From positions 92,042 through 156,041 of the forward strand of contig JANQNU010000035.1 of the NCBI GenBank assembly GCA_028279405.1: a stretch of 64,000 bases of DNA, given 5' to 3'. A program made the position numbers and the translations under genes. This DNA is from Phycisphaerae bacterium (GTDB lineage Bacteria > Planctomycetota > Phycisphaerae > UBA1845 > Fen-1342). The notes below the pieces were generated by a model, which saw only the letters and a list, made by a program, of their open reading frames with translations, was not told the DNA's origin and did not search any database. Below are positions 52,661 to 60,186 of this stretch, one piece after another (the stretch's first letter is position 1; each line of letters begins with the position of its first letter).

Positions 52661-53248
52661 GTGGCCCAGCGACTAACAGGCCTTTGCGTTTTCCTGGCCC
52701 TGCCGGCGCTCGCGATGGCGGCGGATACGGGCGAAGAGCCGAACATCTTCGCCGGCGGTCTTTCGAATGCGATCATTACGCTGGTCGTCTTCGTGATCGT
52801 GGTGACGATTCTCGGCAAGTATGCCTGGCCGCCGCTGATGAAGCGGCTTGAGGAGCGTGAGGAGACGATCCGCGGTTCGTTGCTGCATGCGAAGCAGGAG
52901 CGCGAGGCCGCCGAGAAGCTCCTGGCTGATTATCAAGCGCAGGTCGCGAAGGCGCGTGACGAGGCGACGGCGATTGTCGAGGAAGGTCGACGGGATGCCG
53001 AGGCGGTGCGCCAGCGGATGCATGAGGAAGCGCGGGCCGAGGCGGACCAGATGATCGAGCGTGCCAAGCGTGAGATTGGTTTGGCACGGGACGCCGCGGT
53101 CAAGGAGCTGTACGACCAGACGGCCGAGTTGGCGGTCAACGTGGCGTCCGGCATCATCAAGAAGTCGCTTTCGCCGACGGATCACGGTGATCTGGTGCAG
53201 CAATCGCTGGAGCAGATGAAGGCCGCGGACAAGTCGCGATGGAATTGA
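52661..53248 (+). CDS. atpF: ATP synthase subunit b with signal peptide
   Basis: 195 residues. N-terminal signal-like segment (LTGLCVFLALPALAMAA), then the usual membrane helix (NAIITLVVFVIVVTILGKYAW) and a long charged helix (peripheral stalk). Starts with GTG at 52661 after GGAGTAGGAA. Like subunit c, it appears to be exported with a cleaved N-terminus. Confidence 0.92.
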   Translation: MAQRLTGLCVFLALPALAMAADTGEEPNIFAGGLSNAIITLVVFVIVVTILGKYAWPPLMKRLEEREETIRGSLLHAKQEREAAEKLLADYQAQVAKARDEATAIVEEGRRDAEAVRQRMHEEARAEADQMIERAKREIGLARDAAVKELYDQTAELAVNVASGIIKKSLSPTDHGDLVQQSLEQMKAADKSRWN

Positions 53249-53308
53249 GACCGGGGCGGGCGCGTCACAGCGTCGCGTCGAACCGCGAGGCAATGATAAA
53301 AGGCAACC

Positions 53309-53902
53309 ATGGCTGATAAGTTGGATCCGCAACAGGCCGTCGCGTCGGTGTACGCCGATTCGCTATTCGAGCTGGCTCGTGCCGCGGGTCAGGTTGATGA
53401 CGTTCGCAGCGAGTTGGAAGAGCTGGTCAGACTCGTCGAATTGCAGCCGTCGTTCGGCGATTTCCTGGCGAGCAGTGCGATTCAGGCGGAACGCCGCGCG
53501 GATGGCCTGGAGAAGATGTTCCGTGGCAAGCTGAGCGATCTGGTGCTCAACACGTTGCTGGTGATGAACCGGAACGGTCGCACGGGCGCCGTGGCGGGCC
53601 TGCTTCGATCGTTCGTGCTGGCACAGGAGGAGGCGGCCGGCGAAGTCGAGGTGACGGCGACGAGCGCGGTCGAGCTCGACGAAGCGCAGCGGGAGCGTGT
53701 CGCGTCCATGGCGGCGGAGCTGTCGGGGCGTAAACCGGTGGTCGAGTACACGGTCGATCCGGCGATTCTCGGGGGTTTGGTGCTGCAGATCGGCGACTTG
53801 CGGTTCGACCATTCGGTCCGCCGACAGCTTGAACAAGCACAGCTCCAACTAGCGGAACGAGGGCGGCGTGGCTTGGCGGTCGGCGTTGACGATGCCGGTT
53901 GA
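53309..53902 (+). CDS. atpH: ATP synthase subunit delta
   Basis: 197 residues. VASVYADSLFELARAAGQVDDV at the N-terminus, helical bundle, and C-terminal VEYTVDPAILGGLVLQIGDLRFDHSVRRQL, all typical of OSCP/delta. Joins the b stalk to alpha. Set 60 bp after atpF and 48 bp before atpA. Confidence 0.94.
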   Translation: MADKLDPQQAVASVYADSLFELARAAGQVDDVRSELEELVRLVELQPSFGDFLASSAIQAERRADGLEKMFRGKLSDLVLNTLLVMNRNGRTGAVAGLLRSFVLAQEEAAGEVEVTATSAVELDEAQRERVASMAAELSGRKPVVEYTVDPAILGGLVLQIGDLRFDHSVRRQLEQAQLQLAERGRRGLAVGVDDAG

Positions 53903-53950
53903 GGGGCGCTGACGGCGCGAGTATAGATTGGATGCAAGCACGAGGGTGCG

Positions 53951-55612
53951 ATGAAATTCAAGGCTGACGAAATCGCTTCGATCATCAAAGACGAGATTGC
54001 AAGCTACCAGACGACGCTCGATGTTGCCGAGGTGGGCAAGGTGCTCGAGGTCGGCGATGGTGTGGTGCAGATCTATGGTCTTTCCAAGGCGCAGGCCGGC
54101 GAGATGCTCCAGTTCGAGAGTGGGGCCGCGGGCGTGGTCTTCAACCTCGAGGAGAACTCGATCGGTGCGGTCGTTCTCGGCGGCTTCCTGGACGTCCGCG
54201 AAGGGGAGACGGTTCGGGCGACCGGACAGCTGCTGTCGGTGCCGGTAGGGCCGGCGATGGTCGGTCGGGTGGTCGATCCGCTCGGGCGTCCGCTGGACGG
54301 CAAGGGTCCGATTCAAACCGACGAACGGCGGCCGATGGAGATCATCGCGCCGGGAATTGCCGGGCGGCAGCCGGTCACGGAGCCGCTTCAGACGGGCATC
54401 AAGGCGATCGACGCGATGATTCCGATCGGTCGTGGGCAGCGCGAGTTGATCATCGGCGACCGCAAGACGGGCAAGACCGCGATCGCGATCGATACGATCA
54501 TCAACCAGAAGGGTGGCGACGTCATTTGCGTGTACGTCGCGGTTGGCCAGAAAGAGTCGACCGTGGCCTCGATCGTCGAGTCGCTTCGCGAGCACGGCGC
54601 GATGGACTACTCGATCGTGGTATGTGCGGGAGCGTCGGACCCGGCGCCGTTGCAGTACATCGCTCCTTACGCCGGCTGCACGATGGCCGAGTACTTCATG
54701 TACAACGAAGGGCAGGCGACACTGTGCGTCTACGACGACCTTTCGAAACAGGCGCAGGCGTATCGACAACTTTCACTGCTGTTGCGGCGTCCGCCGGGCC
54801 GCGAAGCGTACCCGGGTGACGTGTTCTATCTGCACAGTCGCCTCCTGGAGCGAGCGTGCAAGCTGGCCGTGCACAGGGTGATCGTCAAGGCGGGCACGCC
54901 GGAGGGTGTCGAAGAGGGCGTGAACGGCAAGGTATACATTGGTGAGCAGGACGCTGAGGCGCTCGATGCGGACCTCAAGGGGTTGGGCGACGGCCATGAG
55001 GCCCGACGGAAGAAGGCGTCAGGCGGCAGCCTGACGGCGCTGCCGATCATCGAGACGCTCGAAGGCGAGGTGTCGGCGTACATCCCGACGAACGTGATTT
55101 CGATCACGGACGGGCAGATCTATCTGGAGCCGGACCTGTTCTTCGCGGGTGTTCGGCCGGCGGTGAACGTGGGTATTTCGGTCAGTCGCGTGGGTGGCAA
55201 TGCCCAGGTGCCGGCGATGAAGAAGATCGCGGGTTCGTTGCGGCTGGACCTCGCGGCCTTCCGCGATCTGGAGGCGTTTGCCCAGCTGGGCACTGAGCTC
55301 GACGCGGCGACACAGAAGCAGCTCGATCGCGGACAGCGGATGGTCGAGTTGCTCAAGCAGCCGCAGTATCGGCCGATGGATGTGTTCGACCAGATTCTGT
55401 CGATCCACTCGGGTACACGTGGTTTCCTCGATGATCTGCCGGTGGGGCAGGTGGGTGAATTCGAGGAAGGGCTCCTGAAGTTCTACCGGGACGAGCATCC
55501 CGAGGTCCTGGACGGCCTGCGCGCGTCACCGAAGATGACGGATGAGCTGGACGCACGGCTCAAGGAGCTGACCGGTCAGTTCAAGAAGCAGTTCGTGTCG
55601 AAGGCCGGCTAG
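53951..55612 (+). CDS. atpA: ATP synthase subunit alpha
   Basis: 553 residues, slightly longer than the 500-515 norm. Non-catalytic nucleotide-binding subunit: P-loop [54 protein letters not shown] split over two motifs, [14 protein letters not shown]. An extra stretch near 300-350 ([18 protein letters not shown]...[10 protein letters not shown]) inserts between LLERA and the [10 protein letters not shown] strand, which explains the added length. Confidence 0.97.
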
Positions 55613-55627
55613 GAAGCAAGGAACGGT

Positions 55628-56500
55628 ATGGCCAGCGCCCGACAAATCGTCAAGCGTCGCAAGGCAGTGCGCAACGTCCGCAAGATCACGCAAACGATGC
55701 AGTTGATCGCAACCGCTCGTTTCCAGAAGTGTTTGCAGCGGGCGACAGCGTCGCAGCCGTATACGCGCAAGATCACCGAGATGATCGAGACACTGGCGTC
55801 GATGGACTCCGCCGATCATTTTCTGTTGCGACCGAACGAGCACGTCAAGCGTGGTATCGTCCTGGCGATCACGGGCAATCGCGGGCTGTGCGGGCCGTAC
55901 AACGCCGCCGTGTTGCGTCAGATGCGGGACCACATCCAGGCGTTGCGGGATACGGGGCATGAGCCGGCGGTCGAGATGGTCGGCAAGAAGGGTCTCAATT
56001 ATCTGCGGTTCCTGCGGCAGCCGGTGGAGCGTTCGATTACGGATGTTGAGGACCGCATTGCGTTTGCACGTGTTGCGGAGATGACTGAGCGTTACATGCG
56101 GCTATACCGCGACGAGGAGATTGGGTTCGTCGACGTGGTCTATACGCAGTTCGTGTCGGCGGGCGTTCAGCGGCCGAAGGCGGTCCGCCTCATGCCGATT
56201 GACCCGCCACAGGTGTCGGACGAGAGTGATGCGTCCGGACGGCCGGACTTCGAGTTTTCGCCGCCGCCGGCTGAGTTGCTGGCGCGGCTGATTCCGGAAT
56301 CGGTCAAGATTCGGCTGTATCAGTATTTCAACGATGCGATCGTCAGCGAGCAGGTAGCGCGGATGGTTGCGATGAAGGCAGCGACCGATGCTGCTGGCGA
56401 CATGATCAAGTACCTCACCCGGGAGTACAACCGGGCGCGGCAGACACAGATCACGATGGAGTTGGCGGATATCGTCGGCGGTGCCGAGGCCGTCCAGTAG
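55628..56500 (+). CDS. atpG: ATP synthase subunit gamma
   Basis: 290 residues. N-terminal IVKRRKAVRNVRKITQTMQL and the C-terminal helix AMKAATDAAGDMIKYLTREYNRARQTQITMEL form the coiled-coil rotor shaft; ITGNRGLCGPYN is the conserved start of the Rossmann-like part. 15 bp after atpA. Confidence 0.96.
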   Translation: MASARQIVKRRKAVRNVRKITQTMQLIATARFQKCLQRATASQPYTRKITEMIETLASMDSADHFLLRPNEHVKRGIVLAITGNRGLCGPYNAAVLRQMRDHIQALRDTGHEPAVEMVGKKGLNYLRFLRQPVERSITDVEDRIAFARVAEMTERYMRLYRDEEIGFVDVVYTQFVSAGVQRPKAVRLMPIDPPQVSDESDASGRPDFEFSPPPAELLARLIPESVKIRLYQYFNDAIVSEQVARMVAMKAATDAAGDMIKYLTREYNRARQTQITMELADIVGGAEAVQ

Positions 56501-56543
56501 ATGAAACGGAAAACGCGCGGACGCCTTCGGGCGCTGGGCATGA

Positions 56544-58010
<1,467 letters not shown>

Positions 58011-58294
58011 GCCGTGTTAGCCATTTGTTGGGTTGGGGCGCAGGTCGCAGCTTTGTCGCCCTAACTCTTCTTCTCCTCTGTTCTTAGCGAAAACTCGGTG
58101 TGGCCTCTGGCGACTCGTGTTAGTCCGTGTTGGGGGCGCTTACTCACCTGTGTATTACCGGTTGGCCGCAACCAACGATGTGGTTGACCGACATTTTCGT
58201 TGATTCTCTCCGACAGTTGTAGTAGCCTGCAACGCCTGTCGTTTGGCATGTGAACATGCCGTGTGCCAGGTCGTCCTACGAGTTGGAGAGTGAG

Positions 58295-59506
58295 ATGAGT
58301 ACAGGAGTTTTCGCTAAGTACCCAATCGTAAAGACAATTCTCGCACTAGCACCCTGGTTCGGTGTCGCGGCCGGGCCGTACGATCAGGCCGCCAAGCTGG
58401 AGATCGTTGACCACGTTCCGATCGAACTCAAGGCCGTTTGGGAGCCCGTCACTGACACTGTCTACGACTTCGAGAAGAAGTTTGATGTTATCAAACGCCT
58501 CAAACCCGTCAGTGAACGGGCGCGTTACGAGGCCCGGCACTTCAGGCCATTCCTTCCGACAGAACAAGTTGGGGTCGGAGATGTATGGCGCGTAGATCCC
58601 AAGGCTGCTTTGCCTTTCCTTCGGCAATTCCATCCCGGAGCAACGGACAAGCTCCACCACGGATTCGTTGGAGTGCGTGGCGCGTGGGCCTGTCTTCGCG
58701 CCCTTGATGTCAACCACGCCGAGATCATCATCAGAGTTCATGCCGAGTTCTTGCTGGAGGGAGACGGTGGGCATGGAACATCCTCATGGATGACGCCAGC
58801 CCAATTCGAAGGTCGGATGCAAATCGATCGAAAGACCCGTGCGGTGACAGCGTTCCAGTTGTCGCTTCCTCAACAGCGTGCGAACGTCGATTTCAATGTT
58901 GCGAAGGACGGAGGAACGTTGGCCGATATTGGTCGGATTCCGCGAATGGAACTGAGTAGTGGAGACGGTTTTTCGAATCAAGTTGCTTCGGGCACCGAGG
59001 CGTTGACTCTCGAACAGGCAAGAAAGCTGCTTGCCCGAAAATTCTATCAGTTTGCTGAAGTGGATTGGCTGAATCTGGAAGAAGCATTGCGAATGTCGAA
59101 GCGGACCGGCAAACCGATGCATATCGTCGCACTTTTCGGCAGTCTCAGCGACGAATCTTGTTGAGCGAGCGGAAAGACCCTCCGTGCGAGGGTCCTATCG
59201 GACGCCAAGATCATTGGCATTCTCAAACGCTACGTGAACGCCTGGGTGCTCGCCAAGGATTTGGATGAAATATCCAATGCGACGAATGATCCTGACCTCA
59301 AACGGCTGTGCGGGCTCGTCCGGGAGCACTATAAGTACCCCGTCGACACAGTCCTCATCTCATCTGAACTCAAGGTCCTGGGTCACAAGAATGTCAAGCA
59401 CGCAATGATTGGTCCAGTTGTATACGAGCCATTCCTACGAAAGGGTCTCGGTGAAGACGTCGTCGAACCTGAGGTGTTTGCGACCGACCGGCCGCCCGAG
59501 AAGTAA
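58295..59506 (+). CDS. Selenoprotein N-like selenoprotein (in-frame UGA read as Sec)
   Basis: 403 residues if TGA 59162-59164 encodes selenocysteine (residue 290, right after Cys289). Upstream and downstream parts are in one frame. Segments match what I recall of animal selenoprotein N: ARHFRPFLP, IIIRVHAEFLLEG, WMTPAQFEGRMQI, DIGRIPRMEL, then a thioredoxin-like domain with HIVALFGSLSDESC-U-ASGKTLRARVL (human SCUG-SGRTLRETVL) and YKYPVDTVLIS. An N-terminal hydrophobic segment (about 8-24) may be a signal or anchor. Start ATG 58295 has GGAG upstream; GTG 58250 is in frame. Composition is lower in GC than neighbours. Function in bacteria is unknown; a redox role with the Cys-Sec pair is inferred. 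Confidence 0.85.
59162..59194 (+). promoter_or_regulatory. UGA selenocysteine codon with bacterial SECIS hairpin
   Basis: UGA at 59162-59164; 11 nt later a perfect stem GACCCUC (59176-59182) / GAGGGUC (59188-59194) with the loop CGUGC. G is the second loop base, and 18 nt lie between the UGA and the loop, within the spacing expected for SelB-recognised bacterial SECIS. The hairpin lies inside the coding frame, as such elements do. Confidence 0.8.
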
Positions 59507-59706: not shown

Positions 59707-60186
59707 TCACATCTGGTCCCAGCCCCAGATGGTCATTTGCGTGTTCTTTTCGAGCGTGTTGCCGCTGACTTTGAGTGTCAGCAATATGCGTCCCCGGTGG
59801 TGTGCTTCGTGCGCGATGAAGTAGGACACGGTCGTAAAAATGCCCTTCTTAAAGCCTCGGCGTTTGGGGGTGCCGTCGAGCACGCCGACGAGCAGTGCTT
59901 CGACCGCGTCGGCGGAGGCGTTCAGCGCCTTGCGGAGCGTGGCTTTGGTCGGAACGACGCCGGTGGCGAATCGCTCGAGCCCGCCGAGGAGTTCCTTGGC
60001 CCGTTTCTCGACCTGCCAGACCCGGATGTTGTGAATGTGAGCCAGTTCGCCGGCGACGCCGCGACCGCCGCGCTTGGAAAGGGTGCTGGTCCATCCTGCT
60101 GACGTGATCTTGTCGATCAGCAATAGGTTGATCCGATTGTTGGTGCGCCAGGCCTCGACGAGCTGGGACCGCAGTTCGCTATCCAT
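59707..60186 (-). CDS. DinB-family protein
   Basis: 159 residues, four-helix DinB/YfiT fold. Metal-binding His are seen in LAHIHNIRVWQV and AHEAHHRGRI. Members include thiol-dependent transferases; substrate unknown. It converges on the selenoprotein gene; the 200-bp space between them has no gene, only an inverted repeat CGTACGG/CCGTACG at 59534-59571. Confidence 0.85.
   Translation of the reverse strand: MDSELRSQLVEAWRTNNRINLLLIDKITSAGWTSTLSKRGGRGVAGELAHIHNIRVWQVEKRAKELLGGLERFATGVVPTKATLRKALNASADAVEALLVGVLDGTPKRRGFKKGIFTTVSYFIAHEAHHRGRILLTLKVSGNTLEKNTQMTIWGWDQM

Follow-up and report, generated by a model that had tools for sequence, protein, structure and literature searches.

A bacterial homologue of selenoprotein N with a predicted selenocysteine codon in a Phycisphaerae genome

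Selenoprotein N (SELENON, SEPN1) is described in passages of PMC12839072 and PMC8148124 as carrying an SCU motif (U, selenocysteine, Sec) in a thioredoxin-like domain that faces a non-cytosolic compartment, and its SCUG has been compared with the GCUG of mammalian thioredoxin reductase (a passage of PMC12839072). In PMC7474598, SERCA2 and further proteins of the lumen are described as redox partners of SELENON. Table 1 of the 2026 prokaryotic inventory (PMC13188914) comprises 119 selenoprotein families, and in excerpts of that source many of them are thioredoxin-like with a predicted redox role; the complete Table 1 has no row for selenoprotein N or for an SCUG or SCUA thioredoxin-like family. 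Nor was a bacterial SELENON found in the open-access PMC literature, represented mostly by listings and passages, with preprints, subscription papers and supplements outside that scope. Here we describe a selN-like gene, with an in-frame UGA at residue 290 that is predicted to encode Sec, in a 64,000-nt stretch of DNA (the window) from a Phycisphaerae bacterium (contig JANQNU010000035.1, positions 92,042-156,041 forward, assembly GCA_028279405.1). The parts of the locus, in window coordinates, are:

58285..58290, + strand: GGAGAG, Shine-Dalgarno-like, a likely ribosome-binding site (by eye)
58295..59506, + strand: selN-like gene, 403 codons, predicted Sec codon 290, TAA stop (from the sequence, database homologues and relatives)
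58295..58378, + strand: residues 1-28, low-confidence N-terminus (predicted local distance difference test score below 50) with a hydrophobic stretch, a likely export signal (by eye)
58382..59029, + strand: residues 30-245, beta-rich N-domain common to SELENON relatives, no clear PDB match (predicted model)
59048..59458, + strand: residues 252-388, domain of thioredoxin fold with the UGA inside it (predicted model)
59159..59161, + strand: TGT, codon of Cys289, the predicted partner of Sec290 (no variation among the 20 sequences of alignment A2)
59162..59164, + strand: in-frame TGA, predicted Sec codon 290 (SCU-ASGKTLR)
59176..59194, + strand: hairpin GACCCUC-CGUGC-GAGGGUC, loop 59183-59187, resembling a bacterial Sec insertion sequence (bSECIS; from folding, comparison and published constraints)

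We consider that this gene encodes a bacterial homologue of SELENON in which UGA 290 is read as Sec, by means of the hairpin and the SelA, SelB, tRNA-Sec and SelD of the same genome, and that the product is an exported thiol/selenol oxidoreductase; we put the probability of this reading at about 0.87. The initial annotation of this DNA had given the frame, its coordinates, the position of the TGA, the residue number 290 and a 403-residue product, and all of these were recovered on re-reading (ATG at 58295, TGA at 59162-59164, TAA at 59504-59506). The presence of an in-frame UGA in a bacterial SELENON homologue is confirmed, and the interpretation as a selenoprotein N with a probable Sec codon is supported. 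The start at ATG 58295 is likely, rather than proven, because in-frame GTG and ATG codons occur upstream.

The relationship to SELENON extends over both sides of the predicted Sec. A profile of 20 bacterial proteins matched human SELENON, in letters not taken from a database record, across both sides with 260 bits (E 2.9e-76 for 200,000 sequences), in agreement with the likeness first proposed, and none of the 201 controls (200 shuffles and the reversed sequence) was reported. The window protein alone was 29% identical to this human sequence over 351 columns (E 2e-40). Its SCU-ASGKTLR fits the pattern of the SELENON core, in which Cys-Sec is followed by x-(S/T)-G and by Arg four residues on. 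The proposed resemblance to human SCUG holds for the CU pair but not for the following residue, the window motif being SCUA. SELENON had been introduced as best known from animals, and it is also reported from algae, according to part of PMC7539508. A role in redox and calcium control had been noted for the animal protein; its calcium-sensing part is not seen here, since there was no EF-hand match in Pfam at E<=1 for the window protein or at E<=0.1 for the four relatives scanned. A Pfam match of the window protein to NodZ (E 0.068) fell below the family cut-off and was taken as noise.

A search of about 5.8 billion proteins returned 231 relatives at E<=1e-3, 120 of them listed, and an alignment-based search returned 102 at E<=0.01. 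From both, 161 database proteins were fetched, including the window's own shortened entry (P0002). Among the matches listed, the JGI name selenoprotein N is attached to one shortened relative (P0051), and the other named entries are hypothetical proteins. Named genomes contained 32 selN-like loci, of which 26 are from Poribacteria, 5 from Planctomycetota and 1 from an unclassified metagenome-assembled genome (MAG). In a sample of 392 genomes of the phylum, 23 had a match, the source genome included, and 12 of these had E<1e-30.

The DNA of the relatives was compared by tblastn. Residue 290 is spanned by 47 of 59 rows, the window gene among them; nine rows stop short of it (L049, L050, L051 twice, L052, L053 twice, L061 and L066) and three were left out as distant thioredoxin-like proteins (L067 with TGC, L069 and L076 with TGA). 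The 47 rows include genes met twice and represent 41 distinct stretches from Planctomycetota, Poribacteria and one unclassified MAG. The codon is TGA in all 47, never TAA or TAG, and each can be read on for another 95-396 codons (45 rows reach a stop codon, two the end of the stretch), so that the in-frame UGA is more than chance. The residue after U is Gly in 26 rows, Ala in 14, Leu in 4 and Pro in 3. Downstream of the TGA, the window protein is 46-58% identical to four members of its clade, compared with 48-56% upstream; nonsynonymous divergence is 0.32-0.54 after and 0.37-0.53 before, with synonymous divergence of at least 1.2 and one value not computable. Across alignment A2 (20 sequences), Cys289, residue 290, Gly293 and Arg297 do not vary.

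Exchange of Sec for Cys is a mark of real selenoproteins. In the family proper the sole sense codon found at the UGA site is that for Cys, in two of the 161 fetched proteins (P0056 and P0065), which continue beyond it; six others have other shapes. The Cys form P0056 nests among TGA-bearing sigma-fused genes with support 97/91. A sense codon other than Cys, which would have spoken against Sec, was not seen at the site in the family proper.

Eleven nucleotides past the TGA begins the stem of the hairpin. The constraints on bSECIS elements given in part of PMC13188914 are a loop of 3-9 nt, a stem of 4-16 bp, a G in the first two loop positions, a distance of 16-37 nt from the UGA and a minimum free energy of at most -7.5 kcal/mol. 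The window hairpin agrees with all of them: its loop has 5 nt with G second and lies 18 nt after the UGA, its stem has 7 bp, and the energy is -19.1 kcal/mol (48 nt). For each of the remaining 40 distinct sequences, the loop of the best stem is 4-6 nt long and starts 18 or 22-24 nt after the UGA. Synonymous redraws were run on the 41 distinct stretches, and the mean stem score of 11.15 compares with 7.39 in the redraws (sd 0.27, maximum 8.22, 300 sets), although these are not 41 independent tests because the sequences are related. Where all five members of the window clade have the same residue, the codons are identical in 5 of 6 cases within the hairpin versus 15 of 97 elsewhere. Outside that clade the loop is GGUC in 20 of 36 distinct sequences and AGGU or AGUU in 15 of 36, and three relatives carry GCAGGUCUGC, the ten bases found after Sec codon 140 of E. 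coli fdhF. An Rfam scan of the whole window at gathering thresholds, which provides the only coverage of the 3' region beyond the gene, matched no known element.

The source genome (5.63 Mb, 95.5% complete) is equipped for Sec insertion. A look-up of selA, selB, selC and selD, suggested with the initial annotation, found all four: there is a tRNA-Sec with anticodon UCA, and SelA, SelD and SelB are over family cut-offs, the last matched in two stretches of a single frame. The selD gene (L018:1468-2541) has an in-frame TGA of its own at codon 22 (SCAGUAG) with a hairpin downstream. The cell therefore very likely decodes UGA as Sec. The tRNA scan of the window was empty, which is uninformative because selC lies on contig C23.

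In the predicted model the thioredoxin-like domain occupies residues 252-388, so that a plain stop at the TGA would remove most of it, as had been proposed. The model has a thioredoxin fold with the redox residue at a helix start, and Cys289-Sec290 is placed just ahead of the helix that bears the active site in thioredoxins. A solved structure of a relative, looked for by sequence, was not found. Export is suggested by the hydrophobic N-terminus together with, in some relatives, a lipobox-like Cys near the N-terminus and the fusion to a sigma factor plus membrane helix, all by eye. The scheme that we favour is as follows. Codon 290 would be translated as Sec under the direction of the likely hairpin 11 nt downstream, with SelA, SelB, tRNA-Sec and SelD of the same genome supplying the insertion, and the protein would be exported and work outside the cytoplasm. 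There, the vicinal Cys289-Sec290 pair would act as a thiol/selenol oxidoreductase: Sec290 may attack a partner, chosen by the N-domain, at a disulfide or an oxidised thiol, and Cys289 may resolve the intermediate as a vicinal selenenylsulfide, as proposed for the CU pair of SELENON. In the sigma-fused Poribacterial relatives, the SelN module could sense redox conditions outside the cell for a transcription factor.

Several points weigh against this reading. Sec at 290 is a prediction from sequence. The folding energy of the 48 nt is only modestly below that of synonymous redraws (mean z -0.79, negative in 37 of 41 and within the lowest 5% in 4 of 41). Covariation is thin and confined to few columns because most hairpin pairs never vary; in hand-made alignments of 13, 8 and 5 sequences (26 of the 41 distinct), shuffles often matched the observed covariation values of the sets of 8 and 5. 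The A-U pair of the window stem is missing from two of the five clade members, and the clade's CGUGC loop differs from the GGUC, AGGU and AGUU loops of other relatives. A SelA match is absent from one of the 12 strong carriers (G210, 84% complete); SelA is over the cut-off in 263 of the 392 sampled genomes, so common that its co-occurrence with selN says little. The human SELENON letters in all comparisons did not come from a database record, and export of the window protein was judged by eye. Among ten proteins encoded next to selN in five relatives, no family recurs that might point to a common partner.

The alternative that survives best accepts the selenoprotein but not the protein-disulfide reduction: the selenol would handle peroxide, metal or metalloid, or would be a sensor without turnover. 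CU motifs do occur in the organometal- and metal-handling SaoL, SaoC, HgcA and MbdU (listed in the part of PMC13188914 concerned), and the sigma-factor fusions suggest sensing. We regard it as unlikely, since SELENON is described in passages of PMC7474598 and PMC8148124 as redox-acting on protein partners. The best fold matches of the predicted model, moreover, would place the domain with those of DsbD/DsbH type and of AGR and endoplasmic reticulum (ER) proteins, and the polypeptide of L036 also includes an AhpC/TSA domain.

Reading of UGA by a Trp or Cys tRNA is known in principle, and the codon could be passed without Sec, by a near-cognate tRNA, a reassigned codon or a frameshift. This is very improbable for the window gene, where a SECIS-like hairpin and the full Sec machinery are present and where only Cys replaces TGA in the family proper. 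TGA is moreover the stop of 14 of the 47 relatives' own frames. It is also the normal stop of atpD, just upstream (58008-58010); the code of this genome is therefore not changed globally, and reassignment of UGA throughout the genome was rejected.

Still less probable is that the UGA is a true stop, with a 289-residue product and a remainder that is the dead remnant of a longer ancestor. The catalogues would agree with it, since 153 of the 161 fetched database proteins end on the Cys directly before the UGA, as would P0159-P0161, which have the N-domain without the thioredoxin part, and L049, L061 and L050, which have lost that part. However, the frame is open and conserved after the TGA in 47 of 47 rows, the grounds on which we rejected a stop; identity after the UGA matches that before it, and termination there would break off the modelled thioredoxin fold partway through the domain. 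Homologues that end at the same UGA, named in advance as a possible objection, thus exist in protein catalogues while their DNA reads on, and their endings look like an effect of gene calling.

Least probable of all is a eukaryotic source, by recent transfer or by contamination, which the patchy distribution (0 of 60 near relatives have a selN-like gene) and the G+C content (54.7% versus 62.4% for the window) might have suggested, but which was rejected given the bacterial contig, the position between ATP synthase genes and a DinB-family gene, the uninterrupted frame with an in-frame hairpin of bacterial type, nearest relatives that are planctomycete genes (52-55% identity; clade of five, support 100/100) and a low G+C that also fits transfer between bacteria.

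It is likely that the gene was acquired from another bacterium, because the near relatives lack it (51 of the 60 have a SelA match) and because of the low G+C. Human SELENON, in the same letters from outside the databases, joins L077/L063/L064 in the tree (support 95/96), a placement from which no conclusion on origin is drawn because long branches are flagged and the root is only a midpoint. In a tentative scenario, which we hold to be less likely than not, the family began with bacterial SelN, an exported CU-thioredoxin module that has a recognition domain of its own; Poribacteria would have wired it to a membrane-bound ECF sigma factor as a redox sensor based on selenium, and eukaryotes would have taken the core and added the EF-hand to give the SEPN1 ER sensor. 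The immediate neighbours of the gene are:

56559..58010, + strand: atpD (ATP synthase beta), upstream neighbour, ordinary TGA stop
59707..60186, - strand: DinB-family protein, downstream neighbour

ATP synthase genes for b, delta, alpha, gamma and beta occupy 52661-58010. The epsilon gene is often found after beta; here the SelN gene follows, and no search was made for epsilon.

The relatives show a variety of architectures. In L032, P0056 and P0065 the SelN domain stands behind an extracytoplasmic function (ECF) sigma-70 factor (Pfam) and a membrane helix (by eye); the N-terminal parts of L030, L031 and L033 are just as long, and these proteins probably have the same fusion. It is possible that these proteins are transmembrane redox-sensing sigma factors in Sec and Cys versions. 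Six Poribacterial relatives (L036, L037, L039, L040, L045 and L047) have about 390 residues after Sec, and in L036, the one scanned of the six, this part contains an AhpC/TSA-redoxin domain. L039 has an additional TGA just before its likely start. Another six (L055, L056, L025, L057, L043 and L044) have about 130-150 extra residues past the thioredoxin domain, mutually alike and absent from the window gene; in the two scanned, L055 and L043, these residues had no Pfam match. Neighbouring paralogues occur in Poribacteria, with three copies each in L038 and L043 and two each in L035, L041 and L044. P0159-P0161 have a coiled-coil-like insert and the N-domain without the Sec domain, and in L066 the N-domain is joined to cyclophilin-like sequence (by eye). 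In L049, L061 and L050 the sequence jumps over the thioredoxin part to C-terminal parts, through internal deletions or assembly joins; the contigs of L049 and L061 are equal in length. Four thioredoxin-like frames of Planctomycetota (L069, L071, L074 and L076) have a TGA after Cys (CU, then LR/TR and LS/FS) and are weakly similar to about residues 208-322 of the window protein; they are possibly another CU selenoprotein family, from which SelN may have obtained its thioredoxin domain.

Mutations of SELENON occur in congenital myopathies, and the N-domain, partners and origin of the protein are poorly known. The bacterial branch is candidate material for structure and enzymology, because its core is small and has two domains, Cys versions exist in nature and the fusions are informative; as a simple bacterial system it could also be used to study how the core functions when no EF-hand is attached. 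It adds to the prokaryotic selenoproteome a family that bacteria and eukaryotes have in common and whose members are truncated at the UGA in protein catalogues. If bacterial SelN were indeed the older form, the ER calcium-redox sensor lost in SEPN1 myopathy would derive from a bacterial core plus an EF-hand. The bacterial branch, its hairpin, the lack of an EF-hand match and the fusions are new to the sources consulted; the kind of protein is itself known.

Among known systems, the shortened database entries belong to this family as far as the Cys that precedes the UGA and end there, so that the active site is missing. The C-terminal domain of DsbD, DsbH, AGR2/AGR3 and the ER protein Rp19 (1sen) are about 10-19% identical in sequence to the window protein and lack the SELENON N-domain, and their sites are CXXC or CXXS where SelN has CU. 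Mammalian thioredoxin reductase has in GCUG a vicinal Cys-Sec pair like that of the window protein; that motif forms the flexible C-terminal tail of a flavoprotein, whereas the window pair is inside a thioredoxin fold. Animal SELENON has the same two-part core in the same order, and the bacterial members share with the human letters used here the blocks FRIHAEF, PAQFTG, DIG..P.MEL, LDD.SCU.SG..LR and LNE.F..TW. The window gene differs from it in SCUA, in an identity of about 29%, in the sigma-factor and AhpC/TSA fusions of its bacterial relatives, and probably in its SECIS, the candidate hairpin being in frame and of bacterial type, where the animal SECIS sits in the 3' untranslated region.
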